Part shown: positions 12,366 to 36,077 of the stretch, one piece after another
How the letters are laid out: each line of letters starts with the position of its first letter
Numbering within the stretch: position 1 is the first letter of the stretch
Origin: Dactylosporangium aurantiacum
Lineage (GTDB): Bacteria > Actinomycetota > Actinomycetes > Mycobacteriales > Micromonosporaceae
Reading direction: 5' to 3'
Length of the DNA stretch: 64,000 nucleotides
Assembly (NCBI RefSeq): GCF_000716715.1
Contig: NZ_JNYJ01000001.1
Coordinates: 124,001-188,000 of the forward strand
Notes under the pieces: model-generated
The model's input: the letters and a program-made list of their open reading frames with translations, nothing else
What the model was told of the DNA's origin: nothing
Databases searched by the model: none
Program-made: the position numbers and the translations under genes

Positions 12366-12412
12366 CGCCCGATGGTGCCAGCCGCGTCCCGCCGCCCGGC
12401 ACCCGGCGGGGG

Positions 12413-13222
12413 TCACAGTCCGGTCGGCAGGCCCAGCGGGTCGGTGTCGATGCCCCGGTACGGCGCCGCGCCCGGGTGCGTGTCGTCGTCCTCCGGGGCG
12501 GCGTGCGCGCCGCGGGTGACGGTGCCGGTGTCGCCGCCGGTGGTGAGGTGGTCGACCACGACGGCGGTCACGTTGTCCCGGCCGCCGGCGAGGACCGCCC
12601 GGTGCACGAGGAGGTCGGCGGCCGCCTGCGCGGTCGGCTCGGCACGCAGGACCTCGGCGATCTCGTCATCGGTCAGCTCCAGCGACAGCCCGTCGGAACA
12701 GACGACGAACCGCTCCCCGGGCAGCGGCGGCAGCACCCACAGGTCGGCGTCGGGCGCGGGCCGCGTGCCGAGCGCCCTGGTGATCACGCCGCGCCGGCGG
12801 GTGACGCTCTCCGGCGCCGTGTGGTCGACGGTGAGCTGGGTGAGGACGTCACCGGCGAAGCGGTACACCCGCGAGTCACCGACGTTGAACACCGCCCACC
12901 GCTCGACGTCGCCGTCACGCACCAGGCTGATCCCGGTGAGGGTGGTGCCCATGCCGGTGCGGACCGGATGCTCCACGGCGGAGGCGAGGATGTCGGCGTT
13001 GGCGCGGGCGACCGCGTCGTGGACGTCCTGCGGGGTCCGGTCGGGCTGCCCGGCGAGCCGCCGCAGCGCCTCGACGGCGAGCTCGCTGGCGACGTCACCG
13101 GCGGCGTGCCCGCCCATGCCGTCGGCGACCGCGAACACCCCGTCGGCGACGAGCGCGCTGTCCTCGTTGCGCCGGCGCACCCGGCCGATGTCGCTGGCGG
13201 CCCCCGCCCGCACGGCCGCCAT
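12413..13222 (-). CDS. PP2C-family protein serine/threonine phosphatase
   Basis: A 269-aa cytoplasmic phosphatase. The metal-binding motifs of the PPM/PP2C fold are all seen: GRVRRRNEDSA near the N-terminus, FAVADGMGGHAAG, VFNVGDSRVYR, VCSDGLS and GGRDNVTAVVVD. It should dephosphorylate Ser/Thr on targets of Hanks-type kinases, none of which is encoded nearby. Its ATG overlaps the stop of the upstream 213-aa gene (TGATG), indicating translational coupling, and it is 47 bp ahead of the Hsp70-like gene. Confidence 0.93.
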   Translation of the reverse strand: MAAVRAGAASDIGRVRRRNEDSALVADGVFAVADGMGGHAAGDVASELAVEALRRLAGQPDRTPQDVHDAVARANADILASAVEHPVRTGMGTTLTGISLVRDGDVERWAVFNVGDSRVYRFAGDVLTQLTVDHTAPESVTRRRGVITRALGTRPAPDADLWVLPPLPGERFVVCSDGLSLELTDDEIAEVLRAEPTAQAAADLLVHRAVLAGGRDNVTAVVVDHLTTGGDTGTVTRGAHAAPEDDDTHPGAAPYRGIDTDPLGLPTGL

Positions 13223-13863
13223 CAGGCACCCGCCGCGACAGGGTGGCCGAAGCGCTCGACGAGGGCGGCGACGACGTCGTCGCGGCTGCCGGCGGTGACC
13301 GCGTCCGGGCCGTCGTCCGACAGCAGCCACGACCCGTCGGCGGCGCGGGCGATCGCCAGCCCGACCTCCGCGGAGTCCTCTCCGGCGTCCGCCGACCTGA
13401 TCGCGACGGCGGCCTCGCCGGGCCCGGCCGTGCACCGGTCGACGAACCTGGCCAGGGGCGCCGCGAGGGGCTCGGCAGGGTCGAGGACGTCGACGCCGTA
13501 GAGCCCGAACGGTCCCGGGTACGCCGCCAACCGCCCGGTATCCCCGCTGAACAGGTGCAGCTGCAGGGTACGGTCGCCGGCGGACCCCGCCGCCTCGGTC
13601 ACCGTGCGCAGCGTCGACAGTGCCGCGACCGCCCCGAGGACGAACTGGCCCGGCACGACGTTGCCGCCCTCGTCGGTGCACAACCCCCGGGCGAGCAGCG
13701 ACGCGACCCCCGCCGCGGTGACGATGTCGGTGGCCGCCTCCGGCCGCAGCCCGAGCCGCCGCCGCACGGCGTCCATGGCGGCGGCGCGCTCGCCGCCGGG
13801 CCCCGCGGCGGAGCGGAGCAGGAACTCGAGCTCGGCGAACGTGCACAACGTCGTGTCGGCCAT
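13222..13863 (-). CDS. Uncharacterised protein, faintly EspG-like
   Basis: A 213-aa protein with no signal peptide or membrane segment. It begins MADTTLCTFAELEFLLR and has an alternating helix/strand pattern, with ARGLCTDEGGNVVP and LHLFSGDTGRLAAYPG. The order of these elements (N-terminal Glu-Leu helix, RGL turn, central strand with xGD, then a basic/acidic C-terminal sheet) reminds me of EspG chaperones of type VII secretion, but identity is too low to claim it. ATG at 13863 has GGAGG upstream. It is coupled to the PP2C gene and heads the operon. Confidence 0.6.
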   Translation of the reverse strand: MADTTLCTFAELEFLLRSAAGPGGERAAAMDAVRRRLGLRPEAATDIVTAAGVASLLARGLCTDEGGNVVPGQFVLGAVAALSTLRTVTEAAGSAGDRTLQLHLFSGDTGRLAAYPGPFGLYGVDVLDPAEPLAAPLARFVDRCTAGPGEAAVAIRSADAGEDSAEVGLAIARAADGSWLLSDDGPDAVTAGSRDDVVAALVERFGHPVAAGA

Positions 13864-14214
13864 ACCCTGGAACGCCCCTCCTTCAATGCCGGCCCTTGCA
13901 TGGTCGTCGCCGGCCCTTGCATGCTCGTCGAGCGTGGCGCGTCCGTCATGCGCTCCGCGGGACGTCGGCACCTTTGGCCACGTCGGCCCGGTCTGCCAGG
14001 TGCTCCGGCTGGCGGCTCGACGCCCGCCGGAGGTGCGAGCGGCGCCGGCCAGCACCGGAACGCACGGGAGGAACGGCCCGATGAGACTACCACCGCGAGC
14101 GCCGTCCGCTTCCGGCCGCTGACCCCTCGTTCAGGACGGAAACCCGCGGAGCGCCAGCCCTGGCGGCGCCGCGACAGCCACCGGCCAGGTGGGCTCGTGA
14201 AGTCCCGTCCGGGG
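13864..14214. other. Intergenic region with a 21-bp direct repeat
   Basis: The operon's upstream region. Two adjacent 21-bp copies (13888-13908 and 13909-13929, one mismatch) begin GCCGGCCCTTGCATG and could be a regulatory site for the reverse-strand operon, since they end close to its ribosome-binding site. No gene was recognised in the remainder. Confidence 0.5.
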
Positions 14215-14478: not shown

Positions 14479-14601
14479 CGTCGCCCTCCGTCCGGCATCC
14501 GCCTTGGGACCCTACTCGCGCGGCACGGGTCAACGCCTGGGTCTGTCCGGCGGCCGAGGGGGCGGTGGGCCTGGTGGGGTTCGCCGTTCCGCTGCGGGTG
14601 A

Positions 14602-16353
14602 GTGGCGGGGCGAGGCAACGTCGGAAGGGTGAGACGCGCAACGGGGATCAGTCGGCGTGGGGTGTTGCTGGCGGCCGGCGGCGCCGTCGCCGGGAGCGTC
14701 CTGCCGGCGGCAGACCCGGCCGCGGCACCGGCCGCCGCCGGGAACAAGCTGATGCCGGTCAGCATGGCGACCCACATCCACGGGCCGTTCAGCGAGGGCG
14801 TGGCCAGTTACGCCGCGCATCTGGCGCAGGCGCGCCGGTACAAGGTCGACGTGGTCTGGTTCACCGACCACGACTTCCGGATCGCAGCGGCCGGGCACCG
14901 GCAGGCGGTGCACTTCGACGGGGTGACCGAGGACGAGCAGGGGCTCGCGTGGACGTGGAAGGAGCACGTCGTCGGCAAGCCCGCCAGTCACGGCGCCGAC
15001 TTCGTGGGCTCGCCGCGGTCGCCGCACGACGGCGGCAAGGCGTTGCGGCTGGCCGCGTCGGGGGCGGGGGCGGTGCGGATGGAGGGGGTGGCCTGGAACG
15101 CGATGGCGAACGCGTGCATCGCCGACACCGAGCTCGGGCTGGACGTGCTGCCGGAGCAGGTCGGCGACGGCGGGGCGTTGACCGTGGACCTGCAGCTGTC
15201 CAACCAGCCGGGGAAGGGGATCCTGCGCGTCGCGTACCAGATCGGCGGCGTCGGGAAGGTCACGCACGAGGTCGACGGGGCCCGTGGGGTGGTGCGGGTG
15301 CCGGCGAAGGACGGGGTGTGGCAGCGGGTGACGTTGGTGCCGCGCGCCGACGTCGCGAAGCTGTGGCCGGACGTCGTGGCCGGGGACAACGCGCTGACGG
15401 GGCTGGCGCTGGAGGTGCGGCAGGGGCGGTTCGTGGTCGACCGGTTGACGTTCACCCGCTCCCGGCGGACCGGGCAGGCCGGTGAGCGGCTGCGGGCGGA
15501 GGTGCTCGCGGCGGTGGCCGGCAAGTATCCGGACGTCACGCAGTACCGGGCGCTGGAGGTGTCGATGGTGCGGCACCTGAACTGGTTCGGCGGCGACCTG
15601 ACGTTGCCCGCGTTCCCGTCGCCGCCGCTGCGGGACAACGACGCGGCGCTGACCGGGTCGATGGTGCGCTGGTTGCACGCGCACGGCGGGCTGGTCTGCT
15701 GGAACCATCCGATGGACGTGGCGAAGCGGGACGAGCTGGCGAAGCTGGTCGTGTCGCAGGGTGCCCTCGGCGTCGACCTCGTGGAGATCGGCCGGGACCC
15801 GCTCGAGGATCTGCTGTGGGTGTACGACGTAGCCGCCCGCAACTGCGTCTTCTTCACCGCACTCGGCAGCAGCGACGACCACGACGCGACGGACTGGGCG
15901 GCGAACGAGGAGCATTTCGTCAGCCACGTGTGGGCGCCGTCGAAGGGGCGGGCCGATCTGCTGCGGGCGTTGGCGGCTGGGGCGGCCTGGTTCACGGATC
16001 TGACGGCGTACCGCGGCGCCATGGACCTGCGCGTCGGCGGGGAGTCCTACATGGGGGCGGTGCTGGTCGGGTCGGCAGCGGTCGCGGTCGATGTGTCGGC
16101 GACGAAGCTGCCGAAGGGCGCGACGCTGGAGGTCGTGACCGGCCAGGTCGGCGTCGGCCTCAAGCCATCCACGAAGGTCATTGTGTCGAAGGTGGGGAAA
16201 CAGCGGGTGAACCTGAAGCCGGGCAACTATGTGCGGGCGCAGGTCCGGCTGAAGGACGCGACGGTCGCCGGGGTGTCGAACCCGTTGTGGCTGCTGGCGA
16301 AGGTGCCCGCGACGCCGGTGCCGGCGGCCAGGAGGCGGGCGCTGCCCTACTGA
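14602..16353 (+). CDS. Tat-exported PHP-domain protein
   Basis: A 583-aa predicted extracytoplasmic metallohydrolase. The N-terminus has a twin-arginine signal (ISRRGVLLAAGGAVAGS) followed by Ala-rich sequence. PHP-type metal ligands follow: THIHGPF, WFTDHDFR, then NHPMD and GSSDDHD toward the C-terminal part. A beta-sandwich-like region (about 160-290) interrupts the PHP core, and another (about 470-570) closes the protein. Substrates may be phosphoesters, but none is known for this architecture. GTG at 14602 is used; GTG at 14629 would also keep the signal. No good ribosome-binding site supports either. Confidence 0.72.
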   Translation: MAGRGNVGRVRRATGISRRGVLLAAGGAVAGSVLPAADPAAAPAAAGNKLMPVSMATHIHGPFSEGVASYAAHLAQARRYKVDVVWFTDHDFRIAAAGHRQAVHFDGVTEDEQGLAWTWKEHVVGKPASHGADFVGSPRSPHDGGKALRLAASGAGAVRMEGVAWNAMANACIADTELGLDVLPEQVGDGGALTVDLQLSNQPGKGILRVAYQIGGVGKVTHEVDGARGVVRVPAKDGVWQRVTLVPRADVAKLWPDVVAGDNALTGLALEVRQGRFVVDRLTFTRSRRTGQAGERLRAEVLAAVAGKYPDVTQYRALEVSMVRHLNWFGGDLTLPAFPSPPLRDNDAALTGSMVRWLHAHGGLVCWNHPMDVAKRDELAKLVVSQGALGVDLVEIGRDPLEDLLWVYDVAARNCVFFTALGSSDDHDATDWAANEEHFVSHVWAPSKGRADLLRALAAGAAWFTDLTAYRGAMDLRVGGESYMGAVLVGSAAVAVDVSATKLPKGATLEVVTGQVGVGLKPSTKVIVSKVGKQRVNLKPGNYVRAQVRLKDATVAGVSNPLWLLAKVPATPVPAARRRALPY

Positions 16354-16372
16354 CCTTCGGGCACCTTCGCGT

Positions 16373-16411
16373 ATTGGCGTTCGGCATTGGCGTTCGGCAT
16401 TGGCGTTCGGC
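16373..16411. repeat. 13-bp tandem repeat (3 units)
   Basis: Three perfect copies of ATTGGCGTTCGGC, the last continuing into a partial fourth, between the PHP-protein stop and the terminator. Confidence 0.92.
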
Positions 16412-16417
16412 CATTGA

Positions 16418-16446
16418 AAAGGGCCCGCCTTGTGGGCGGGCCCTTT
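16418..16446. terminator. Bidirectional rho-independent terminator
   Basis: A GC-rich stem (GGGCCCGCC at 16421-16429 with GGCGGGCCC at 16435-16443) is flanked by A residues on one side and T residues on the other, so it can terminate both the forward PHP-protein transcript and the reverse tRNA-Gly transcript. Confidence 0.85.
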
Positions 16447-16448
16447 CG

Positions 16449-16524
16449 TGGAGCGGACGACGAGATTCGAACTCGCGACCCTCACCTTGGCAAGGTGATG
16501 CGCTACCAGCTGCGCTACGTCCGC
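16449..16524 (-). tRNA. tRNA-Gly (GCC), CCA encoded
   Basis: Reading the reverse strand, acceptor stem GCGGACG pairs with CGTCCGC. The anticodon arm is TCACC-TTGCCAA-GGTGA (anticodon GCC) and the T arm contains TTCGAAT. The discriminator T at 16452 is followed by an encoded CCA (16451-16449). A TATAGT -10 element lies upstream at 16541-16536. Confidence 0.95.
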
Positions 16525-16535
16525 GTTGCCTTATG

Positions 16536-16541
16536 ACTATA
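16536..16541 (-). promoter_or_regulatory. -10 element of tRNA-Gly gene
   Basis: TATAGT on the reverse strand ends about 11 bp before the first tRNA base, so the leader would be very short. A clear -35 box is not seen. Confidence 0.5.
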
Positions 16542-16596
16542 GCGCACTGTCGCGGACCGGTTCCTGCGGGGGTCGGTCACCCGTTAGCGTGGCGCC

Positions 16597-17646
16597 GTGA
16601 GGCGAATGATGTTCGTGGTGCCGCTGTTGCTGGCCGGCTGCTCGGCTGCGTCCTCCTCCGCGCCCGCCTCCGCACCCTCGCCTTCCTCGGCCTCGGCCGC
16701 GACTGCCTCCGCGTCGGCCGCCGCCTCCCCGCCGCCCGCCGACCTGACGCTCGTGTTCGCCGGTGACGTGCACTTCATGGACCGCACCGCGAAACTGCTC
16801 AAGGACCCGGCGACCGCGTTCGGCCCGGTCGCGGCGCAGCTGTCCGCGGCGGACCTCACGATCGTCAACCTGGAGACCGCGATCACCTCCAGGGGCGCGG
16901 AGGAGCCGAAGACGTACCACTTCCGCACCACGCCCGTCGCGATCGACGCCCTGAAGGCCGCCGGCATCGACGCGGTGAGCATCGCCAACAACCACACCCT
17001 CGACTACGGCCGGACCGGCCTGCTCGACACCCTCGACGCGCTGCGCTCGGCCCGGTACCCGGCGTTCGGGGCGGGCGCGAACACCGACGAGGCGTACCGG
17101 CCGTGGCTGACCGAGGTCCGCGGCGTGAAGATCGCCGTGCTCGGCTTCAGCCAGGTCGGTGAGCTGTCGTCGAGCTGGGCGCCGGGCCCGGACAAACCCG
17201 GCATCGCCATGGCGTTCGACACGCAGCGTGCCGTCGCCGCCGTCACCGAGGCCCGCCGCCGGGCCGACCTCGTCATCGTGTTCAACCACTGGGGTGACGA
17301 AGGCAACAGCTGCCCCAACGCCGCCCAGAAGACCTTCGCGGCCAAGCTGTCCACCGCCGGCGCCGACCTGATCATCGGCGCGCACGCCCACACGCTGCAG
17401 GGATCGGGGCAGCTGGGTCGCACGTTCGTCGCGTACGGCCTCGGCAACTTCCTCTGGTACGGCCCCTCCAAGAGCACCGAGACCGGCCTGCTGCGCCTCA
17501 CCGTGCGGGACCGCGCCGTCACCAAGCGAGAGTTCCTGCCCGCCGTCGTCTCCGACACCGGCCGGCCCACCCTGCTCACGGGCGCCGCCGCGACCAGGCT
17601 CAGCCAGCGGTACGCCGGCCTGTCGACCTGCGCCGGCCTCACCTGA
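16597..17646 (+). CDS. CapA-family lipoprotein (metallophosphatase-like)
   Basis: A 349-aa lipoprotein: signal peptide with lipobox LLAGC at about 11-15, then a Ser/Ala/Pro-rich linker to about residue 48. The globular part is a CapA/PgsA-type metallophosphoesterase: FAGDVHFMDR, VNLETAIT, SIANNHTLDYGRTGLLDT, IVFNHWGDEG and IIGAHAHTLQG supply the His/Asp/Asn ligands. CapA proteins take part in poly-gamma-glutamate synthesis, but the synthase genes capB and capC are absent here, so another surface role is likely. GTG at 16597 is 12 bp downstream of TAGCGT, which could serve as a -10 for a nearly leaderless message. Confidence 0.85.
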   Translation: MRRMMFVVPLLLAGCSAASSSAPASAPSPSSASAATASASAAASPPPADLTLVFAGDVHFMDRTAKLLKDPATAFGPVAAQLSAADLTIVNLETAITSRGAEEPKTYHFRTTPVAIDALKAAGIDAVSIANNHTLDYGRTGLLDTLDALRSARYPAFGAGANTDEAYRPWLTEVRGVKIAVLGFSQVGELSSSWAPGPDKPGIAMAFDTQRAVAAVTEARRRADLVIVFNHWGDEGNSCPNAAQKTFAAKLSTAGADLIIGAHAHTLQGSGQLGRTFVAYGLGNFLWYGPSKSTETGLLRLTVRDRAVTKREFLPAVVSDTGRPTLLTGAAATRLSQRYAGLSTCAGLT

Positions 17647-17668
17647 CGCGCCGGATCCGGATACCGGT

Positions 17669-17698
17669 TTGGCATGGGGGATGGCGGTCGGCTAGAGT
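17669..17698 (+). promoter_or_regulatory. Promoter of the tRNA Gly-Cys-Val cluster
   Basis: TTGGCA (17669-17674) and TAGAGT (17693-17698) are separated by 18 bp and lie 37 bp before the first tRNA. This resembles a vegetative sigma-70 promoter. Confidence 0.65.
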
Positions 17699-17735
17699 TT
17701 GCATCCGTCGCCGGGTGCAGGACTGGCCGGGCGGT

Positions 17736-17808
17736 GCGGACGTAGCGCAGCTGGTAGCGCATCACCTTGCCAAGGTGAGGGTCGCGAGTTCGAATCTCGT
17801 CGTCCGCT
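17736..17808 (+). tRNA. tRNA-Gly (GCC), second identical copy
   Basis: The 73-nt body is identical to the tRNA-Gly at 16449-16524 but in the opposite orientation. Acceptor stem, GCC anticodon and TTCGAAT T loop are all intact. CCA is not encoded here, unlike the other copy. Confidence 0.95.
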
Positions 17809-17822
17809 CGGGAAAAGACCAC

Positions 17823-17893
17823 GGTGGGGTGGCCGAGAGGCGAGGCAACGGCCTGCAAAGCCGTGTACACGGGTTCAAATCCCGTTCCCACCT
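17823..17893 (+). tRNA. tRNA-Cys (GCA)
   Basis: The acceptor stem GGTGGGG pairs with TCCCACC. The anticodon loop is CTGCAAA (anticodon GCA) within CGGC/GCCG stem pairs, and the T arm is ACGGG-TTCAAAT-CCCGT. It is 71 nt long and without encoded CCA, 14 bp after tRNA-Gly. Confidence 0.95.
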
Positions 17894-17930
17894 CGGAAAG
17901 GCCACACCTCGGTGCGGCACCCAAAGGCTC

Positions 17931-18002
17931 GGGCGATTGGCGCAGTGGGAGCGCGCTTCCTTGACACGGAAGAGGTCACTGGTTCAAACCCAGTATCGCC
18001 CA
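17931..18002 (+). tRNA. tRNA-Val (GAC), island attachment site
   Basis: GGGCGAT pairs with ATCGCCC. The anticodon arm is CTTCC-TTGACAC-GGAAG (anticodon GAC) and the T arm is CTGG-TTCAAAC-CCAG. It is 72 nt long, with no encoded CCA. Its 3' half from the first base of the anticodon loop is duplicated at 21,544, as expected for an integrase target. Confidence 0.95.
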
Positions 18003-18194
18003 CCGAACCGGTGAACGCCCCCTGCTCACGCAGGGGGCGTTCACCGTTCCGGTTCGGATTCTCCGCGCACCGGCTTCGCCGGTGCTCCCCGGTGGGGGAG
18101 CTTCGCTCCACCCACACCCCCTCAACACCGTCCGCCGCCGCTCGGTTCACGTCAGCCGGGCCGTTTCGGTGCCCCTGTGTGCGGCATTACCGGG
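17961..18194. repeat. Left copy of island-flanking direct repeat (attL-like)
   Basis: 17961-18005 (tRNA-Val from the anticodon loop onward) matches 21544-21588 at 41 of 45 positions, and 18051-18194 matches 21593-21736 at 140 of 144. The 38-bp terminator hairpin between these blocks is present only in this copy. Confidence 0.9.
18009..18046 (+). terminator. Strong hairpin after tRNA-Val
   Basis: A 17-bp perfect stem (18009-18025 with 18030-18046; core GAACGCCCCCTGC) and loop TCAC follow the tRNA-Val gene immediately. It should end the tRNA transcript. It is missing from the second copy of this region at 21,589. Confidence 0.8.
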
Positions 18195-18492
18195 TCGTGA
18201 ACTGCCGCGAGATCACACGCGACCACGTCGATCTGTCCGGCGGGTAGACCGTCGAACTGGCCTTGCGTCAACGTGCCGGCGCCGGGTCAGACGCACGTTG
18301 CGAACCAACCATGAAGCGTGAGTACGGGCACCGAGCAAGTGACCGCCGAGGACGGACGCAGGCTGATGTAGCCGACATGACCGTGCCATCGACCGTGACT
18401 GTGAAACTCGGGTAGCCGTTCGTGTGGTGACGTAGCGTGCAGCGAGGTGATACCCATCGGGGTGGATGTTCCGGCGATGGGAGTTGATCAGC
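18195..18492. other. Leader region of the STAND module
   Basis: About 300 bp with no gene that I can support. It is less GC-rich than the flanking chromosome and should contain the promoter of the two-gene module. Confidence 0.5.
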
Positions 18493-18912
18493 GTGGATGT
18501 GGATCTGGCGGCGGCGGTCGTGCCGTATGTGGCGGCGGCGGTTGGCGTGTACGGGGCCCGTGTGTTGGAACGGGTCAGCGACGCCGCCGCGGATGCCACC
18601 GCCGCCGCGACGGTTGGCGTTGGACGGCGGCTGCTGCGCCGGATTTTGGGTCGGGAAGCGTCGGCGGGTCCGGTGAGCGCTGCGGTGCAGGATCTGGCGG
18701 AGGACCCAACGGATGAGGACCGGGTGGCGGCGTTGCGGTTGCAGTTGCGCAAGGCGCTGGTGTCCGATCCGCAGCTGGCGGCCGAGGTGGCCGCGATGTT
18801 GCCTGACGCCACGACGGTCACCGCGGCCGGTCCGCGGTCCGTGGCCGCTCGGGACATCACCGGCATCGTGCAGACCGGCGACGGCAGCGCCGCGTGGCAG
18901 GGGCGTGGGTAG
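18493..18912 (+). CDS. Small STAND-associated protein
   Basis: A 139-aa protein. An amphipathic or membrane-like N-terminal helix (LAAAVVPYVAAAVGVYGARV) is followed by Ala-rich helices, the LAEDPTDEDRVAALRLQLRK helix and an end region reading AARDITGIVQTGDGS. I recall similar small proteins or N-terminal domains beside actinobacterial STAND or protease effectors, but cannot name the family. GTG at 18493 has GGGAG nine bases upstream. The stop codon is 2 bp before GTG 18915 of the STAND gene, whose N-terminus repeats the same ending motif (ASIDGVVQTGDGA), so they should act together. Confidence 0.65.
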   Translation: MDVDLAAAVVPYVAAAVGVYGARVLERVSDAAADATAAATVGVGRRLLRRILGREASAGPVSAAVQDLAEDPTDEDRVAALRLQLRKALVSDPQLAAEVAAMLPDATTVTAAGPRSVAARDITGIVQTGDGSAAWQGRG

Positions 18913-18914
18913 GC

Positions 18915-21316
18915 GTGCCCGGTAGCGACGGCGCCGGGGAGCAGGTCAAGACCGCGTCGGTAGCCGTGTCTGGGCAGCGTGGTGTGGCCGCGGCGAGCAT
19001 CGATGGTGTCGTGCAGACCGGTGACGGTGCGCAGGCCCGCGTCCTGGCCGGGGCGGTAGCACTGGAGCCGCCGGCGGCGGTGGATGCGCCGCAGGCGGGG
19101 TTGTCGGGGCTGCCCCGGCCGGCGGTGCGCACGTTCGTCGGCCGGGACGAACAGCTGGCCGAACTGGACCGGCTCGTGCACGCCGGGGCGGGGGTGGTGG
19201 CCCAGGCTGTGCATGGGTTGGGTGGGGTGGGCAAGAGCGAGCTGGCGTTGCAGTACGCGACCCGGCACCGGGCACGGTACCGGGTGGTGTGGTGGATGTT
19301 GGCGGACAGCCCGGACGCGATCGAGGCTGGGCTGGCCGACCTGGCGTTCCGGCTGCACCCGGACGTGCAGGTGATCGCCACCCAGGCTGAGGCGGCGATC
19401 TGGGCGCTGAGCTGGCTGCACAGCCATGACGGCTGGCTGCTGGTGTTGGACAACGTCGAGCACCGCCGCGACGTCGAGCCGCTGCTCGGGCAACTCGCCG
19501 GCGGACATGTTCTGCTCACTACCCGTCTCGACGTCGGCTGGGAGGACATCACCGACGGGTGCCTGCGACTGGAGGTCCTGACCCCGGCGGACGCGGTGGC
19601 GCTGCTCGCCCGGCTCAGCGGACAGCACGACCCAGCCACCGCAGGAGTGCTGGCCGGTGAACTGGGCTGTCTGCCCCTCGCCCTGCAGCAGGCCGGCGCC
19701 TACCTGCGCCAGACCCGCACCCCGATGGCCCGCTACCTGCAGCAACTGCGCGACGACCCGGCCCGCACACTGGCAGCCGTGGCTGCCGGTGATGACGCCC
19801 AACGTGCGGTTGCCCGGATCTGGACCGTCACCATCGACCGCATCACCGGACACACCCCGCTCGCGCTGCGACTGCTGCGGCTGGTGTCCTGCATGGCCCC
19901 CGGCAACGTGCCTCGCGACCTGTTCACCCCAGCCGCCAACCCCGTCGGTGAGCCGGCCGACGTTGACGCGGCCCTGGGCGTGTTGGCCTCCTACAACCTG
20001 ATCACACTCACCAGCGACAGTGTGAGCACGCACCGACTTGTGCAAGCCGTCACCATCGCCCAGCTCCGCCAACCCGTACCCGAGCCGCACCCCAACACCA
20101 CTGATGCCAGCCTGCCCGGACCGTTACCAGCCCAGACATGGGACGACGTCCTGCACGCGGCGGTCGATCTCCTCACCCGAGGCGCGCCGCCCGGCGACCC
20201 AGGGACGGCTGTTGTCGGCTGGCCGCGCTGGGCTGCGCTCAGCCCGCACGTCGCCGCCCTGGCCGACCGGTGCCCCGATGACATCGGTGGCATCGACCTT
20301 GCGTGGCTGCTCGGCGAGACCGCCCTTTACGACAGCACGCAGGGCCGCTACCACCAGGCCCTGCAGCATAAGCGCCGTGCCCTGGCCATCACCGAGGCTA
20401 CCCTCGGCCCTGACCACCCCAAGGTGGCGATCATGCTGAACAACCTCGCGGTCAGCCTGGCGGACCTGGGTCGGGCCGGGGAGGCTGAACCGCTGCAGCG
20501 CCGTGCCCTGGCCATCACCGAGGCCGCCCTCGGCCCCGACCACCCCAACGTGGCGATCAGGCTGAATAACCTCGCGCTCAGCCTGCGAACCCTGGGTCGG
20601 GCGGGGGAGGCTGAACCGCTGCAGCGCCGTGCCCTGGCCATCACCGAGGCCGCCCTCGGCCCCGGCTCAGCCTGCGAACCCTGGGTCGGGCGGGGGAGGC
20701 TGAACCGCTGCAGCGCCGTGCCCTGGCCATCACCGAGGCCGCCCTCGGCCCCGAGGAGGCTGAACCACTGCAGCGCCGTGCCCTGGCCATCACCGAGGCC
20801 GCCCTCGGCCCCGACCACCCCAACGTGGCGACCACGCTGGACAACCTCGCGCTCAGCGTGGCGGACCTGGGTCGGGCCGGGGATGCTGAACCGCTGCAGC
20901 GCCGTGCCCTGGCCATCGCCGAGGTCGCCCTCGGCCCCGACCACCCCGACGTGGCGATCAGGCTGAATAACCTCGCGACCAGCCTGTACGTCCTGGGTCG
21001 GCCCGGGGATGCTGAACCGCTGCAGCGCCGTGCCCTGGCCATCACCGAGGTCGCCCTCGGCCCCGACCACCCCAACGTGGCGATCATGCTGGACAACCTC
21101 GCGCTCAGCGTGGCGGACCTGGGTCGGGCCGGGGATGCTGAACCGCTGCAGCGCCGTGCCCTGGCCATCACCGAGGCAGCCCTCGGCCCCGACCACCCCA
21201 GCACGGCGATCAGGCTGAATAACCTCGCGAACAGCCTGCGAGCCCTGGGCCGGTCCCGGGATGCCGAACCGCTGCTCCGCCGCGCAGCCGAGATCCCACG
21301 CCACCGATCTGCATAG
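18915..21316 (+). pseudogene. STAND NTPase (NB-ARC) with TPR repeats, frameshifted
   Basis: The intact frame from GTG 18915 (or GTG 18894) encodes an N-terminal VVQTGDG motif, a TFVGRDEQLAELDRL lead-in, Walker A GLGGVGKSE, Walker B WLLVLDNVE and the LLTTR sensor of a STAND NB-ARC module. A winged-helix-like region follows, then kinesin-light-chain-type TPRs of 42 residues. At about 20,664 a 37-nt deletion in one 126-bp repeat shifts the frame. The shifted product would end at 20,966 after about 100 aberrant residues, while true TPR sequence resumes in another frame to 21,316. Relatives act as pathogen sensors or regulators, so this copy is probably inactive or truncated. Assembly collapse in the repeats is an alternative. 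Confidence 0.8.
20361..21291 (+). repeat. 126-bp TPR-coding tandem array with two internal deletions
   Basis: The landmark GAACCGCTGCAG (and GAACCACTG once) recurs at 20487, 20613, 20702, 20762, 20888, 21014, 21140 and 21266. Intervals are 126, 126-37, 126-66 and then 126 bp again, so two units are shortened: one out of frame (37), one in frame (66). Confidence 0.92.
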
Positions 21317-22276
21317 CGACAGCCGAGATCGAACCGCCACCCTGCGGCAACTGCCACGCACATCCCGGCACGCACTGCACAGCCTCAAAGGAGAGCAGCG
21401 ACAGCCGACGACCACTTCGGGGAGAAATCTGGGAGAGGATCTTGCAAATTGCCCCTCCGGACGCCCACGCAGACCAGCAGGTACCAACGCCATGAGCAGC
21501 AGAAACAGCATCAGCCGCAGATAGATCGACCAAGTTGACCTTATTGATACGGAAGAGGGCACTGGTTCAAACCCAGTATCGCTTACCGTTACGGTTCGGA
21601 TTCTCCGCGCACCGGCTTCGCCGGTGCTCCCCGGTGGGGGAGCTTCGCTCCACCCACACCCCCTCAATACCGTCCGCAGCCGCTCGGTTCACGTCAGCCG
21701 GGCCGTTTCGGTGTCCCTGTGTGCGGCATTGCCGGGCTTTCGGAGGTTCGACAGTCGAGACGGAGCAACAGCACAGGCCTTGATCGACGGCGTGATCGGT
21801 CGAACCGCACGTCCGCTTGGGTGACGTCGAGAACGACCCGCGGTCGGGGCTACGTGGAGGCGCGATGGCGGCCTGTTCGCCGCTTGCTGTCGGGGTCAGC
21901 CTTGCGTGCCGTTTCCCAAGCGTCACCGGGTTGGGCTCCGTGCGCCCGCAGGAGGGCGTAGTGCACCCGCCGTCGTACGGCTGGAGTTCGTAGGCGAACG
22001 CCAGGCCTTCTTCCGCGAAGCGGGCGGCGATGGCCTGGGCCAGCTCGTCGGCACGCCGGACATGCACGTCCATCCGCGCGGTGCTCAACGCTCTCAACGG
22101 CCGGGGGACGGCATGAGTGGGTCATCGCCATCCTCGGCGTTGCAGCGCTTCCGGCGAGCGGGAACACACCGGAGACCGTCAGGACGATGCCCGACAGGAG
22201 CCGCGGACCGTCCGCGCGACGTCCGTGGAGAGCGGCCGCGGTGTGCCTGGATGATGCCACGGTCAGCCGGACCGGG
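21317..22276. other. Region with right island boundary and a possible gene remnant
   Basis: Contains the right repeat (21544-21736). Beyond it, the reverse strand has a protein-like reading from ATG 22073 (MDVHVRRADELAQAIAARFA and onward) that becomes implausible once it enters the repeat. This may be a gene truncated at the island edge. No family was recognised and there is no clear ribosome-binding site. Nothing else is supported. Confidence 0.4.
21544..21736. repeat. Right copy of island-flanking direct repeat (attR-like)
   Basis: Carries a decayed 3' half of tRNA-Val (from TTGATACGG) and the 144-bp downstream block. It lacks the terminator hairpin found in the left copy. It is not a functional tRNA because the 5' half is absent. 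Confidence 0.9.
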
Positions 22277-22690
22277 TCAGTGCCAGCGGACGGCGAACCG
22301 GTCGCCCGGGTGCAGCTCCTCGCCGTCGGCGGTGTGCACGACCAGCACCGGTACACCGTCGGCGAGGTTGAAGCGCTCGCGCTCGCGGCGGGTCGGCATC
22401 CTCGCCGACACGACCCCGCCGGGCGGGACGGGGAGGACCTCGTCGGGGGTGGACAGCGGGCGGCGGGCCGGGCGGGCCGTGACCGGGCCGACCCGGATCG
22501 ACTTGTCGGGGGCGAGGAACAGCAGGCCCTCGCGGCGCAGGACGGCGATGCCCTTGAGTGCCGTGTCGCGGCCGACGTCGTGCTCGCGGGCGAGCGCCGC
22601 GGCGCTGGGCACCGTGGCCCCCGGCGGCAGCGTCCCGGCCATGATCAGGGCCCGGAGGGCGTCGGCGACGCGCTCGTACCGTGGCGGCAT
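22277..22690 (-). CDS. GntR-family transcriptional regulator
   Basis: A 137-aa protein. The N-terminal wHTH reads YERVADALRALIMAGTLPPG, then VPSAAALAREHDVGRDTALKGI, matching GntR. The short C-terminal part (RERERFNLADGVPVLVVHTADG) is only about 50 residues and lacks a full HutC or FadR ligand domain, resembling truncated HutC-type regulators. The effector is unknown. The start is ATG at 22690. Upstream, a TetR gene lies on the same strand 94 bp away. Confidence 0.88.
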   Translation of the reverse strand: MPPRYERVADALRALIMAGTLPPGATVPSAAALAREHDVGRDTALKGIAVLRREGLLFLAPDKSIRVGPVTARPARRPLSTPDEVLPVPPGGVVSARMPTRRERERFNLADGVPVLVVHTADGEELHPGDRFAVRWH

Positions 22691-22784
22691 CCGCCGACTG
22701 TAGCCACTAGGCCACAGGTGGCGAAAGGCGCCGACGGCCGCCGTCCCCAGAGTGTGAAAACGGGAAGGCGGAACGCGGCGGACG

Positions 22785-23390
22785 TCAGGCGGTCGCCGCG
22801 CCCAGGGCCCGGAACGCGAAGTCGGCGACCTGCTCGGCGGCCCGTTGCGCCGCCGCGCCGTCGCGGGGGCCCAGCGCCATCCGCTCCTGGAACGCGGCGG
22901 ACAGCGCGGCCGTGATGGTGCGGGCGTCGGCGTCGGGGTCGGCCCACGGCAGCGACCCGTCGGCGCGCCCCCGCTCCAGGATCGACGCGATCGCCGCGTG
23001 GTGCGCGGCGGTCATCCGGGCCCGCTCGGCGGCGTAGCCGGCGGTGCCCATCAGCTCGCCGCACGACATCGCCAGGACCCGGCGCCGGCGGTGCCGGTCC
23101 GCGGTCAGCGACAGGAACCCGTAGATCCACGCCCGCAGCGCCTCGGGCGGGGTGGTGGCGGCGCCGGCGGCCGCCGTGAGCTCGGCGTGGACCCGGTCGC
23201 TGGCGCGGCGGAACATCGCCAGCAGCAGCGCGTCCTTGGAGTCGAAGTGCCGGTAGAACGCCCGCGTGGACAGGCCCGCGGCGGTGAGGACGCCGGTGAC
23301 GGAGAGCCCGCCGCCGTCGGTGTCGACCAGGCATTGGTACGCGGCGTCGATGATCCGCGAACGCTCCCCGGTGTCTGCGGTCACGGACAT
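22785..23390 (-). CDS. TetR/AcrR-family transcriptional regulator
   Basis: A 201-aa regulator. The N-terminal HTH includes IIDAAYQCLVDTDGGGLSVTG and AGLSTRAFYRHFDSKDALLL. The C-terminal helical region (about 60-200) binds an unknown ligand. It is divergent from the FadR-type regulator with 85 bp between the start codons, so the two may share a control region. Confidence 0.92.
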   Translation of the reverse strand: MSVTADTGERSRIIDAAYQCLVDTDGGGLSVTGVLTAAGLSTRAFYRHFDSKDALLLAMFRRASDRVHAELTAAAGAATTPPEALRAWIYGFLSLTADRHRRRRVLAMSCGELMGTAGYAAERARMTAAHHAAIASILERGRADGSLPWADPDADARTITAALSAAFQERMALGPRDGAAAQRAAEQVADFAFRALGAATA

Positions 23391-23475
23391 CAGCCCATGC
23401 TAACGCGCGCAACGGCGGCGCAACGGAATCGTCGTATCATCCACGTTCGTCACGTTCATCGATAGAGGAGCGTCC

Positions 23476-24225
23476 ATGACGGAGCCGGTGGAGCCGATCG
23501 GTCGGCTGGTCCGCACGCCGAAGACGGCCGAGCTCATCGCCACCGACCTCCGCACCCGCATCGTGCGCGGCGTGCTGCGCGCCGGTGACGCGCTGCCGCC
23601 GGAGACGCTGCTGATGGCGCAGTTCGGGGTGTCCCGGCCGACGCTGCGGGAGGCGTTCCGGATCCTGGAGACCGAGTCGCTCATCGCGGTGCGCCGGGGC
23701 GCGCGGGGCGGCGCGTACGTGCTCGCACCGGACCGCGCCGTCGCTTCCCGGTACGTGGGGCTGCTGCTGCAGCTCGACGGCACCACGATCGGCGACGTGC
23801 ACCAGGCGCGGGCGGTGCTCGAGGCGGCGTGCGCGGCCCGGCTGGCCCGCATCCGGACCCGGCAGGACCTGCTCGACCTGCGGGCGTGCGTCGAGGACCT
23901 GCGGGCCGCGGCCGGCGCCGACCCGGACCCGGTGAGGTGGGGGCGGCACGCGGCCCGGTTCCACGAACTCGTGCTGCAGCGCTGCGGCAGCCGGACCCTC
24001 GCCGTGCAGTGCGGCGTCCTGCAGGACATCGTGGCCACCCACACGGGGCCGGGCGGCCCCGGGCAGGCCGGGTTGCCGCGGCGGCTGCTGCGGTCGTACG
24101 CCCGCCTCGCCGACCTCGTCGAGGCCAGGGACGCCGAGGGCGCGGAGCGGCACTGGCGCACCCACCTGGAGTCCTCGGCCCGCGGGCCGCGGCGCTCCAC
24201 CGCGGTCGTCGACCTGTTCCGGTGA
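23476..24225 (+). CDS. FadR/GntR-family transcriptional regulator
   Basis: A 249-aa protein with the GntR HTH (ELIATDLRTRIVRGVLRAGD, then LLMAQFGVSRPTLREAFRIL) and an FCD-like all-helical C-terminal domain containing the expected His ligands (FHELVLQRCGSRTL and the HWRTHLE helix). Effectors of this subfamily are often carboxylates bound through a metal; not known here. ATG at 23476 follows GATAGAGGAG. A possible site, CGTATCATCCACG, lies in the divergent region with the TetR gene. Confidence 0.9.
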   Translation: MTEPVEPIGRLVRTPKTAELIATDLRTRIVRGVLRAGDALPPETLLMAQFGVSRPTLREAFRILETESLIAVRRGARGGAYVLAPDRAVASRYVGLLLQLDGTTIGDVHQARAVLEAACAARLARIRTRQDLLDLRACVEDLRAAAGADPDPVRWGRHAARFHELVLQRCGSRTLAVQCGVLQDIVATHTGPGGPGQAGLPRRLLRSYARLADLVEARDAEGAERHWRTHLESSARGPRRSTAVVDLFR

Positions 24226-24245
24226 CGGTGCACTAGGCTGCGCCG

Positions 24246-24869
24246 GTGAACCCGTACTTCGTCTGGGAGGACCACGCGCCGGGCGAGGGGTGGCGGCCGT
24301 TCACCGAGCTGCACGACCCCGCCGTCGCCGTCGAGCGGGTGGAGGTGGCGCGGCGGACGCTCGTCACGATGTTCGGCCTGGACCCGGCGGTGGTGCCGCC
24401 GCGGGTGGTCGCGTCGGTGACGTTCCTCGGGGTCGCGTCGCGGCTGCTCGCCCCGCCGCTCGTCACGCCCCGGTACCCGGCACCGGAGCAGCTGTACTGG
24501 AAGCCGGTCCCCGCCGGGCCGTGGCCGATGGCGTGCACCGCCCCGCCGGCCGGCGGGGCCAGCGTCGGCGCGTACCGGGACCGGGTCGTGCTCGGGCTCG
24601 TCGGGCCGCTGCTGGAGGTGTTCCGCGCCGCGTTCCGGCTGTCGCCGAAGGTGCTGTGGGGCAACGTCAGCTCGGCCCTCGCCGGCGCCGCCGGCCAGCT
24701 CGGCGACCCGGCCGCCTGGGCGACCCTCGCCGAGCTGCTCACGGTCGCGCCCCTGGCGGGCACCGCCGACCTGCACGGGCGGGCGCTGCGGCGGCGCAAC
24801 TGCTGCCTGTACTACCGCATCCCCGGCGGCGGCACCTGCGGCGACTGCGTCCTGCGCCCCGCCCCCTGA
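24246..24869 (+). CDS. FhuF-like (2Fe-2S) protein
   Basis: A 207-aa protein whose C-terminus ends in a cysteine cluster, NCCLYYRIPGGGTCGDCVL, matching the C-C-x10-C-x2-C pattern of FhuF-type ferric siderophore reductases. The rest is moderately conserved: FVWEDHAPGEGWRPF at the start and SPKVLWGNVSSALAGAAG in the middle. It may reduce ferric siderophores in the cytoplasm; no siderophore genes are nearby. GTG at 24246 (ORF MNPYFVWED) starts 20 bp after the FadR gene, so they may be co-transcribed. Confidence 0.8.
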   Translation: MNPYFVWEDHAPGEGWRPFTELHDPAVAVERVEVARRTLVTMFGLDPAVVPPRVVASVTFLGVASRLLAPPLVTPRYPAPEQLYWKPVPAGPWPMACTAPPAGGASVGAYRDRVVLGLVGPLLEVFRAAFRLSPKVLWGNVSSALAGAAGQLGDPAAWATLAELLTVAPLAGTADLHGRALRRRNCCLYYRIPGGGTCGDCVLRPAP

Positions 24870-24905
24870 CAAGGCGCCGCGAAGCGCCGGGCGCGGGAAC
24901 CGCCG

Positions 24906-25634
24906 TCAGCGTTGCGCGGCCGTGCCGAGCAGGTGACCCTCGTGGTCGGAGACGGTGACCTTGTCGACGTTCGGCAGCTGGATCGAGCTCGCTCCCGTCA
25001 CCCGCGCCGACGCCGACGCCGTGCGTCCCCAGCAGGCCGCCTGCTCCTCCTGGCCGCCGCGGCCGACCACCCGCAGCACGTACGGCCCGTCCCCGGGCAG
25101 GCCGCTGAGCTCCAGCGCGACCGACACGCCCCACTGCCGCGGGGTGAGCGTCGCCCGCCCGGACAGGGCGCTGCCGGCCGCCGCCACGAACTGCACGACC
25201 GTGCCGGCCGGCGCGCTGGACTGTGTCACCTGCTGCTGGCCGGTCGGGCGCGGGTCGGTCGCCGGCTGCGGGGCGGCCCGTGGCCACAGCACGGCCCCGG
25301 CGGTGAGCAGGGCGAGCGCGGTGGCGCCCGCGGCGGCGCCGGCGAGCAGCCCGGCGCGGTGCCGGCGACCGCGGGGCGCCGCCTGCCGGCTGCGGCGCAG
25401 CAGCGCGTCGAGGCCGTCGCGGGTCGGCGCCTCCAGCGGCGCGGGCGGGCCGGCCGGCAGCCGCTGCAGCAGCTCCGGCACCGGCGCCAGCCGGTCGGCC
25501 TCGGCGCGGCAGTCGGCGCAGCCGCTCAGGTGCGCGTCGACCAGCGTCCGGTCGGTCTCGTCGAGGCCGCCGAGGACGTACCCTCCGAGCAGCGGGCGCA
25601 CGATGTCGTGCTCACCGCGCTGCGCAGCGCTCAT
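24906..25634 (-). CDS. Membrane anti-sigma factor with ZAS zinc motif
   Basis: A 242-aa protein. The cytoplasmic N-terminus has the H-x3-C-x2-C motif (H35, C39, C42) of zinc anti-sigma domains, a hydrophobic helix (about 96-115) and an outer domain with FVAAAGSALSGRATLTP, like the RskA-type sensor region. It should sequester the ECF sigma factor encoded immediately upstream, whose stop overlaps its ATG by 4 bp. The signal is unknown. Confidence 0.9.
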   Translation of the reverse strand: MSAAQRGEHDIVRPLLGGYVLGGLDETDRTLVDAHLSGCADCRAEADRLAPVPELLQRLPAGPPAPLEAPTRDGLDALLRRSRQAAPRGRRHRAGLLAGAAAGATALALLTAGAVLWPRAAPQPATDPRPTGQQQVTQSSAPAGTVVQFVAAAGSALSGRATLTPRQWGVSVALELSGLPGDGPYVLRVVGRGGQEEQAACWGRTASASARVTGASSIQLPNVDKVTVSDHEGHLLGTAAQR

Positions 25635-26140
25635 CGCAGCACCCCCATCTCCTCGAACACCGCGCGCAGGGCCCGGACCGCATAGTAGGCACGGGACTTG
25701 ACGGTCCCCTCCGGCACCGACAGGCGGCGGGCGGTGTCGGCGACGGTACGCCCGTCGTAGTACACGGACTCCACGACCTGCCGGTGCTCGACGGAGAGCC
25801 GGTCCAGGGCGGCGCGCACGAGCCAGCCCTCGACGAGCTCGTCGACGTTGTCGGTGTCGGCGACGGCCGCGATCGCGTCCGGGTCGTCGACGAGCCGGGG
25901 CCGGCGCTGGTCCGCCCGCCAGGCGTTGCTGACCACGTTGCGGGCGATCGTCAGCAGGTACGAGCGGGTGGTGTCCCGGCTCACGTCGATCCGCCCGATG
26001 TGCTTCCACGCCCGCAGGAGCGTCTCCTGCACGAGGTCCTCGGCGCGGTGGCGGTCGCGTTCGTACCGCGAGACGAAGCCGAGCAGCACACCGTAGTGCT
26101 CGGTGTACAGCGCGGTCATCAGCTCCTCGTCCGTGGTCAA
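25631..26140 (-). CDS. ECF RNA polymerase sigma factor
   Basis: A 169-aa sigma factor. Region 2 includes HYGVLLGFVSRYERDRHRAE and DLVQETLLRAWKHI, region 4 ends with the HTH VADTARRLSVPEGTVKSRAYY. It lacks regions 1 and 3. The layout with a ZAS anti-sigma factor is like mycobacterial SigL/RslA. ATGA overlap with the anti-sigma gene indicates coupled translation. Autoregulation is likely but no site was identified. Confidence 0.93.
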   Translation of the reverse strand: MTTDEELMTALYTEHYGVLLGFVSRYERDRHRAEDLVQETLLRAWKHIGRIDVSRDTTRSYLLTIARNVVSNAWRADQRRPRLVDDPDAIAAVADTDNVDELVEGWLVRAALDRLSVEHRQVVESVYYDGRTVADTARRLSVPEGTVKSRAYYAVRALRAVFEEMGVLR

Positions 26141-26232
26141 CCGGGTCTCCCTCGTCGGCGCGGGTCCTGCTGACGTCTACCCCACCAGACAGTTGCGGGT
26201 TCAACCACCCTTGCGGGGACCTGATGCGCAGA

Positions 26233-26260
26233 ACCCCGCGCGCCGGGCGGCGCGCGGGGT
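26233..26260 (-). terminator. Hairpin terminator after the YcnI gene
   Basis: ACCCCGCGCGCC (26233-26244) and GGCGCGCGGGGT (26249-26260) form a perfect 12-bp stem with loop GGGC, 22 bp after the YcnI stop on the reverse strand and between it and the sigma factor gene. Confidence 0.8.
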
Positions 26261-26281
26261 CCGTGGAGCGTGGCGGTGCGG

Positions 26282-27001
26282 TCAGGCGGTGCCGCGCGGT
26301 GCCGCCCGGCGGAACGCGAGGACCGCCACGACCAGGCCGGCGAGGCCGAGCACGAGGCCGGCGGCGCCGAGACCGATCGCGGCGCCGTCGCCGTCGTCGT
26401 CGCCGTCGTCGTCCGCCACGGCGGCCGGGCCGGCGGCCGCGGACGCCGGTGCGGACGCGCCGGCCTTGGGGGTGAGCTTCAGCACCGGCGCGGGGTGCTC
26501 CGCCTCGGCGCCGGCGGCCGGCTCGTCGATCCAGCGCACGATCTCGCCGTTGGAGTACGTCTGCAGCGCCTTGAACACGAGCTGGTCGGTCACCGGCAGC
26601 GGGCCGAGGGAGACGTCGAACTCCTGGAACGTGTGCGGCTTGATCTCCGCACCCGCCGACGCGGTCCAGGTGATCTTCGAGACCGCCTCGGTGAGCTCGC
26701 CGTCGTCGGTCTTGACCGGGGTGGCGAGCTTGCTGGTCTCGGTGGCGGCGGTCCAGCCCTGGACGGGCTTGAGCGACACCGACGCGATCGGCTTGTCGGT
26801 CGGCAGCGCGATCTCGAGCTTGGTGGTGGAGGCGTCGTCGCGCTCGTTCGGCACCCGGAACGTCACCTTCGTGTACCCGCCCTGCGTGGCGGTGCCCGGG
26901 TTGACGGTGACGTGAGCGGAGGCGGCGGCGGGGAAGGCGAGTGCAGCGGCGGCGGCCGCGGCGACGGCGACACCCGCGCGGACCACGTGGGTCAGGCGCA
27001 T
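26282..27001 (-). CDS. YcnI/DUF1775 copper-associated membrane-anchored protein
   Basis: A 239-aa exported protein. The signal peptide ends SAASA and the mature chain begins with HVTVNPG, placing His at the N-terminus as in B. subtilis YcnI, where it binds Cu(II). The beta-rich YcnI domain spans about residues 33-170, then a Pro/Ala linker, an Asp/Gly stretch (DDDGDDDGD) and a C-terminal membrane helix (AIGLGAAGLVLGLAGLVVAV). It probably delivers copper to cuproenzymes; no cop or sco gene is adjacent. ATG at 27001 is chosen after the IMRLTHVV start. Confidence 0.9.
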   Translation of the reverse strand: MRLTHVVRAGVAVAAAAAAALAFPAAASAHVTVNPGTATQGGYTKVTFRVPNERDDASTTKLEIALPTDKPIASVSLKPVQGWTAATETSKLATPVKTDDGELTEAVSKITWTASAGAEIKPHTFQEFDVSLGPLPVTDQLVFKALQTYSNGEIVRWIDEPAAGAEAEHPAPVLKLTPKAGASAPASAAAGPAAVADDDGDDDGDGAAIGLGAAGLVLGLAGLVVAVLAFRRAAPRGTA

Positions 27002-27089
27002 GATGCGGGCTGTCCTCTCGGGAAGACGGTTTGGCAAGGTCAGCGGGTAGTCGCCGGCGGCGGCCGGAAAGTTCCCGCGACGTTCGCGT

Positions 27090-27554
27090 TCACCGCAGAT
27101 CGGCCGGGTCGGCGTACGCGGTGCCGAGCGCGGTCACCGCGAACAGGCCGACCGCCAGGACGTGCACCCCGGTGCACCACAGGCAGATCGCGTCGAGGGT
27201 GAACAGCTCCGCGAACACCAGCCAGACGACGAACAGCACCCCGACGGCCGAGCTCGCGAGCCGGGCGAGCCGCACGTCCCGGCGCGTCGAGCGCCACAGC
27301 AGCGACAGGACGATCATGACCGCGAAGTACAGCAGCCCCAGGACGGCGACGGGCACGCCGAACACGGTCGACTGCGCGCTGGTGGTGACCTTCAGGCAGT
27401 TCAGCGCGCCGGTGTCGGGGCACGCGAGGGTGGTCGAGGACGAGTAGTGCTCGATCGTCAGGTACAGCGACAGGGCCAGGCCGAGCACGGACAGCACCAG
27501 CGACACCGGGGGCACCCACCGCTGGACCACGGGGTCGGCGACGGTCTCGGTCAT
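27090..27554 (-). CDS. VKOR-family membrane protein
   Basis: A 154-aa four-helix protein that re-oxidises thiol oxidases using quinone. The loop cysteines occur as LACPDTGALNCL and the active-site pair as ICLWCTG, the order expected for VKOR. Hydrophobic helices cover most of the remaining sequence. The start, ATG 27554, lies 11 bp after the stop of the DUF929 gene in the same transcript. Together they should form the extracytoplasmic disulfide-making pathway. Confidence 0.92.
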   Translation of the reverse strand: MTETVADPVVQRWVPPVSLVLSVLGLALSLYLTIEHYSSSTTLACPDTGALNCLKVTTSAQSTVFGVPVAVLGLLYFAVMIVLSLLWRSTRRDVRLARLASSAVGVLFVVWLVFAELFTLDAICLWCTGVHVLAVGLFAVTALGTAYADPADLR

Positions 27555-36006: not shown

Positions 36007-36023
36007 CGATCTCCCGAGATTCC

Positions 36024-36035
36024 TGAAACGTGTCA
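36024..36035. promoter_or_regulatory. LacI-type operator, proximal to the regulator/lut operon
   Basis: TGAAACGTGTCA matches the perfect palindrome at 36124 at 11 of 12 positions and lies 17 bp upstream of the regulator start. On the reverse strand it overlaps a TTGACA hexamer, so binding would block that promoter element. A weaker copy (CGAAACGCTTGT) follows at 36039. Confidence 0.75.
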
Positions 36036-36077
36036 ACCCGAAACGCTTGTATCAGACCGGTAACGCGATTGAAACTC

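Follow-up and report, generated by a model that had tools for sequence, protein, structure and literature searches.

We analyzed a 64,000-nucleotide stretch of the Dactylosporangium aurantiacum genome (contig NZ_JNYJ01000001.1, positions 124,001 to 188,000; 'the window' below) in which an intact valine tRNA gene is followed by a gene for a small helical protein (ORF1), a STAND gene and a displaced copy of the tRNA's 3′ part (Table 1). Between 17600 and 22300, Rfam finds three tRNAs and nothing else. The anticodon loop of tRNA-Val (TTGACAC, seven bases) begins at 17961, and two blocks recur downstream of the gene pair – 17961-18005 at 21544-21588 (41 of 45 positions matching) and 18051-18194 at 21593-21736 (140 of 144). 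In a search of the genome itself (G000, an assembly of 227 contigs) these blocks returned E values of 4.5e-10 and 4.4e-67, so neither is a chance match. An earlier sequence-only reading had described this repeat as starting at the anticodon loop, with a terminator hairpin in the left copy only, and comparison of the copies bears out both statements.

The repeats enclose about 3.5 kb of cargo (3.6 kb in the sequence-only reading), and its foreign origin, proposed there, is supported by a third-position GC content of 0.84-0.85 versus 0.96-1.0 for the genes on either side. Between the repeats, coding signal is confined to the pair, whose domains are NB-ARC and tetratricopeptide repeat (TPR), and no FtsK/SpoIIIE transfer gene was found there. 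The claim that no integrase is left also held, as PF00589 has no match on the window's contig. A sole integrase-like match, at 34990-36051, was rejected because Pfam assigns it to a LacI-family regulator. RepSA, the one replication initiator included in our test, is encoded in this genome on contigs C4, C30, C32 and C44 and not on the window's contig, C1.

Table 1. Features of the tRNA-Val locus, in window coordinates.
Feature	Position	Strand	Basis
tRNA-Val (anticodon GAC), intact, integration target	17931..18004	+	ARAGORN and Rfam
Left attachment core: tRNA 3′ part from anticodon loop base 1	17961..18004	+	Displaced in 6/6 same-genus genomes
Terminator-like hairpin after tRNA-Val, left copy only	about 18006..18042	+	Sequence comparison of both copies
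Left copy of native flank	18043..18194	+	147/152 versus 21585-21736
Small helical protein (ORF1), 148 aa, Bell-like putative effector	18466..18912	+	48 homologues; helical model
C-terminal motif RSVAARDITGIVQTGDG of small protein	18835..18885	+	tblastn, pair test
STAND gene frame, NB-ARC then TPR; GTG starts 18894 or 18915	18894..20966	+	Pfam domains
N-terminal STAND motif, same as ORF1 tail	18957..19037	+	tblastn of ORF1, 56% over 27 aa
Two shortened TPR units (89 and 60 nt); frame breaks	20625..20773	+	Unit-length alignment
Remaining TPR array, other frame	20825..21316	+	ORF and domain scan
Distal element arm adjoining right core	21416..21543	+	G006 83%, G002 73%, G003 72%
Displaced, drifting tRNA 3′ part, attR core	21544..21588	+	41/45
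Right copy of native flank, without hairpin	21585..21736	+	Own-genome match and pairwise alignment

We compared the locus with six genomes of the same genus (G001-G006). Similarity of these relatives to the window spans the Gly-Cys-Val tRNA cluster and ends at 18003-18004. In all six (G001, G003, G005, G006, G004 and G002), a PF00589 integrase is encoded no more than 1.6 kb downstream of tRNA-Val and a displaced tRNA-Val 3′ part is present. The same core is thus displaced with an integrase alongside, in agreement with the earlier proposal that a tyrosine integrase used the anticodon loop as its attachment site. Attachment cores in the relatives measure about 44-46 bp. Their intact tRNA adjoins the integrase, the displaced 3′ part marks the opposite end, and it is this opposite end that the window retains – its right junction (element side plus core, about 165 bp) is common to G006 (83%), G002 (73%) and G003 (72%). 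Judged by this comparison, the right junction looks like the integrase-distal end of an element, with its arm kept and its displaced tRNA part free to drift.

Dactylosporangium sp. AC04546 (G002) carries a homologous pair at the same tRNA and the same element end as in the window. On its contig C14, tRNA-Val is followed by an integrase and a helix-turn-helix (HTH) protein; contig C175 encodes RepSA, an FtsK-type protein and SSB, then a homologous small protein and STAND gene; and contig C119 holds the end of the homologous STAND gene (212 of 212 C-terminal residues examined are identical to P0049, the STAND protein of AC04546), the arm and the core. An integrase, an HTH protein and RepSA are also encoded at this tRNA in G006. 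The two tyrosine integrases (G002 L030:15553-17058, minus strand; G006 L029:13611-15119) are 64% identical, and in both of them about residues 303-346 match a LacI-type HTH; this stretch separates an N-terminal SAM-like part from the C-terminal catalytic match. The sequence-only reading had suggested looking in related genomes for the same island with an integrase. In our comparison the site is occupied in all six, the right junction recurs in three and the module of G002 belongs to an element with integrase, RepSA and FtsK-type genes, as would fit an origin from a conjugative element. We identify the parent as an actinomycete integrative and conjugative element (AICE) because integrase, replication and FtsK-type transfer genes are what define such an element in PMC3218068.

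We therefore consider it very likely that the locus is a decayed AICE at tRNA-Val that has retained a distal-end gene pair of the Bell-NLR type as cargo. The window is best read as having kept the far end and the cargo and lost the integrase, replication and transfer genes. By alignment, the long repeat is the core plus a duplicated native flank. An unusually long, novel attachment core was ruled out by the shorter repeats of the relatives; the excess is duplicated flank and partly a dispersed repeat. A palindromic sequence dispersed in the same genome, with 15 additional matches there, makes up bases about 18059-18130; among the seven same-genus genomes, the window's own included, no part of the repeat other than that beyond about 18147 is restricted to the two copies. 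Because the part of the repeat beyond the core duplicates the native downstream flank, the left end appears to have been rebuilt after integration. We propose that the locus recombined with a native copy of itself and that an illegitimate join near 18195 completed the exchange, which would have replaced the left end in one step; the same event would have removed the integrase, replication and transfer genes and duplicated the flank. The 144-bp repeat discussed in the sequence-only reading is thus not an attachment core, while the recombination with a related locus that it raised as an alternative comes close to this rebuilding.

The cargo genes are adjacent or overlapping, since the STAND gene starts either within the end of ORF1 (18894) or 3 nt past its stop (18915). 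ORF1 has 48 homologues and no match in Pfam, PADLOC or NCBIfam; AlphaFold models it as a helical protein whose tail is poorly ordered (mean pLDDT 78.7), and its maximum mean hydropathy over 19 residues is 1.77. The TPR units of the STAND gene measure 126 nt, save for the two shortened ones, and the frame breaks near 20663. The two-gene STAND module proposed earlier is thus present with both of its genes, but the STAND gene is not intact, and the sequence-only reading had missed both this frameshift and the motif that the two proteins share. Given the frameshift, the receptor of this copy is probably inactive and the gene probably dead, unless the array has been misassembled. It is possible, though we do not favor it, that the organism has an intact gene and that misassembly of the repetitive array produced the frameshift: the assembly has 227 contigs and the G002 array breaks across contigs, but the best STAND match is 67% identical and no near-identical full-length protein was found, although a 141-aa version of the same small protein is listed on an 11.5-Mb contig – a weak and indirect counter-argument. 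The STAND gene of G137 is likewise split over two frames. The FxSxx-COOH TPR model matched at 306 bits against a cut-off of 300, and no FxSxx-COOH partner gene was found among the eight window ORFs scanned, to which the search was confined.

The tail of ORF1 and the N-terminus of the STAND protein have in common a motif centered on GIVQTGDG/GVVQTGDG, and a profile match for the STAND copy falls at contig coordinates 142954-143037. Bell-NLR pairs with BASS motifs were reportedly described by Dyrka et al. in 2020. For a test of such sharing, 37 loci were tried and 35 pairs extracted (L064 and L085 had no readable neighbor), of which 31 were kept after identical ORF1 copies had been dropped. ORF1 tails scored 71.5 against their own neighbor and 42.3 against other neighbors, a preference matched in 0 of 20,000 permutations; because the pairs come from related genomes, this and the following counts are not probabilities of independent events. 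The ORF1 body, used as a control, showed no own-neighbor preference (3,410 of 20,000). Permutation within classes gave 0 of 20,000 for the TGD class (22 pairs) and 4 of 20,000 for the RHIM-like class (7 pairs), and 29 of the 31 pairs exceeded all 500 shuffles. The motifs of homologous small proteins are of the TGD, VQIG or HNHGSG type, and each recurs in the respective partner. The P-loop pattern occurs in 23 of the 31 partners. The others include three that are not NB-ARC proteins (L055:6399-7493, L068:1886-3406 and L089:1932-3374) – one without a Pfam match, one AAA and one DUF4062-NACHT protein – and the motif is still shared.

By its architecture the cargo resembles a Bell-NLR amyloid-signaling pair, a putative assignment, and by the same analogy the pair probably signals through the shared prion-like tag. 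It is unlikely that these are ordinary neighboring genes with a non-amyloid motif, such as a plain homotypic adaptor tag. The absence of a full RHIM tetrad from the TGD-type motif would agree with such a tag, but homologous small proteins carry a RHIM-like VQIG/VQVG motif in which two glutamines lie seven residues apart (7 of 7 RHIM-like homologues), the spacing also of Q113 and Q120 in the published BASS3 mutants.

ORF1 homologues occur in 35 of 300 genomes of the family. Of 33 spans examined, 7 have the pair enclosed by a tRNA on one side and a copy of that tRNA's 3′ part on the other (6 of 32 without the window, which prompted the test). The count was 0 of 20 for control spans located 0.1-1.5 Mb from Bell loci, a rate that is imprecise because RNA genes are present in 5 of the 20 controls compared with 17 of the 33 Bell spans; at an assumed control rate of 5%, the binomial tail is 0.001. 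The 33 spans comprise 30 fetched ones plus those of G137, G029 and the window. The main locus of G002, spread over contigs, was excluded, the partial matches in G084, G106, G197 and G211 were left out, and several spans are clipped by contig ends. Enclosed pairs were found in the window (Val), G137, G240 and G216 (Pro), G029 (Arg), G085 (SeC) and G139 (Gly), with one further enclosed pair, across contigs, in G002 (Val). G272 and G153 have repeats of this kind nearby, but the pair is not enclosed by them.

G137 and G029 hold elements with an integrase and RepSA; beside the tRNA, G240 encodes an integrase (Pfam 76.1 bits) and G216 a fragment of one, which at 24.3 bits misses the cut-off of 27.1. 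The integrase-like search of the spans also picks up LacI regulators because two of the query integrases contain a LacI-type HTH, and the matches used in the argument were checked by Pfam. The STAND stop lies close to the distal repeat in the window (about 227 bp), G002 (280 bp), G137 (327 bp), G029 (351 bp), G240 (227 bp) and G085 (79 bp); the distance is 3.2 kb in G216, and the orientation is reversed in G139. G085 provides a second small island, 3.4 kb long and bounded by tRNA-SeC, in which only the pair was detected and whose span has no integrase-like match. Fragments resembling the tRNA-Val core (TTGACACGG[AG]AGAGGTCAC) occur near the end of the STAND gene in G002 (L104, about 9370-9430) and in the tRNA-SeC island of G085 (span about 32536-32556).

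Several observations weigh against the decay of an AICE with a Bell-NLR-type cargo. The empty tRNA-Val sites that the sequence-only reading had envisaged in related genomes were absent from all six same-genus genomes. The sequence 3′ of the tRNA is the integrase-side end in the relatives and a native flank copy in the window, and because of this unlike left end the loss step can only be proposed. The G002 element lies on three contigs that were joined via protein, with no contig overlap. RepSA lies within 15 kb of an ORF1 homologue in only 3 of 35 genomes; it was therefore rejected as a general marker of such loci, and the tRNA and repeat bounds were used instead. In the motif test, no motif is shared in L071 or L082, and the ORF1 tail of the window places its own partner fourth of 31. 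PADLOC matched none of three proteins submitted, Foldseek of the ORF1 model against the PDB gave 0 matches at E <= 0.001, and a mean hydropathy of at least 1.6 over 19 residues is reached by no more than 21 of the 48 ORF1 homologues.

A further alternative, which we consider quite improbable, is an integrase-less cassette consisting of the tRNA 3′ part and its own terminator flank, moved in trans by AICE integrases and with the long repeat as its true end. The same flank at both junctions and the tRNA-SeC segment of G085 speak for such a cassette, whereas the window's distal arm belongs to an integrase-bearing element family and the G085 repeat ends at the tRNA end, with no flank. Contig C87 of the same genome, which has no PF00589 match, lends the cassette some plausibility because a tmRNA 3′ end, its hairpin and the dispersed repeat recur there four times in about 5.2 kb. 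A PIN-domain toxin-like gene (11120-11491) lies between copies of these tmRNA repeats (L047 6414-11964). An ancestral tandem duplication of the tRNA region with genes inserted later, named by the sequence-only reading as a finding that would overturn it, could account for a direct repeat of the tRNA 3′ part plus flank, yet is extremely improbable since the right copy starts precisely with the anticodon loop, and what precedes it is the conserved element arm rather than tRNA 5′ sequence.

In an intact pair of this kind, the STAND protein would sense a trigger via its TPR array and oligomerize through NB-ARC. Its N-terminal motif would then nucleate an amyloid-like fold and act as a template for its counterpart on the small helical protein; the latter may in turn damage the membrane and stop or kill the cell. 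The frameshifted TPR array probably disables the sensor in this copy. We tentatively suggest, as a broader model that is open to considerable doubt, that Bell-NLR amyloid modules are recurrent distal-end cargo of AICEs at several tRNAs (Val, Pro and Arg), where they might serve the element against its competitors or against phages, by immunity or by addiction; that they outlive the element as minimal tRNA-bounded islands (Val in the window, SeC in G085); and that near-identical TPR repeats let recombination switch off or retarget the sensor.

The repeated distal placing of such pairs in AICEs may be the part that is new. Among the matches listed in our literature search, no report associated such pairs with AICEs beyond a figure legend in PMC3218068 that names an NB-ARC protein as AICE cargo in Frankia. 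The role of bacterial amyloid-signaling NLR pairs is called a blind spot in PMC7889193, and pairs recurring at one end of a conjugative element offer a testable setting for what is protected, whether it is mobile and what is sensed. The present case also illustrates how immune-type genes can persist once an AICE has decayed.

The surroundings of the locus are themselves variable. The order and orientation of blocks corresponding to 10542-14097, 14580-21736 and 22282-27500 differ among the same-genus genomes, as repeated inversion of the tRNA block might produce. Two tRNA-Gly genes (16451-16524 and 17736-17809) are perfect inverted copies of each other over 74 nt; a PGA_cap-domain gene lies in the 1,211 nt that separate them, and relatives have the same layout.

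Pairs of bacterial amyloid-signaling NLRs were predicted from genomes, according to PMC7889193, and the architecture of Bell-NLR pairs with BASS motifs is presented in PMC7889193, PMC8086366 and PMC9815663. The window agrees with these accounts in having a small protein gene followed by an adjacent or overlapping STAND gene, in the match between the C-terminal motif of the small helical protein and the N-terminal motif of the NLR, a sharing found in 29 of 31 pairs, and in its host, a filamentous actinobacterium. Unlike the published pairs, its receptor is broken and it sits in a decayed AICE; its TGD-type motif is a candidate BASS motif. Compared with AICEs as described in PMC3218068, the window's relatives have the tyrosine integrase, RepSA and FtsK-type genes at tRNAs, and the window has none of them. 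The cis-mobilizable elements (CIMEs) described in Streptococcus are att-bounded leftovers without recombination or conjugation genes (PMC7563491). The present state of the window fits this type because its att sites are kept and its recombination and conjugation genes lost; unlike the CIMEs described there, it is not in tandem with an intact element, and its mobilizability is putative. Attachment repeats flank the island at the target gene, as in a decayed AICE or a CIME, and the core is common to all six relatives. AICE decay, accretion and numerous cargo pseudogenes have been described in Streptomyces, with one family located in tRNA-Val and bounded by 46-nt repeats (PMC9513070). While those defective AICEs (DAICEs) kept traB and the window keeps none of int, rep or tra, carries different cargo and has a duplicated left flank, it shares with the AICE remnants of PMC9513070 their decay, their position at a tRNA, their direct-repeat bounds and the cargo left between them.

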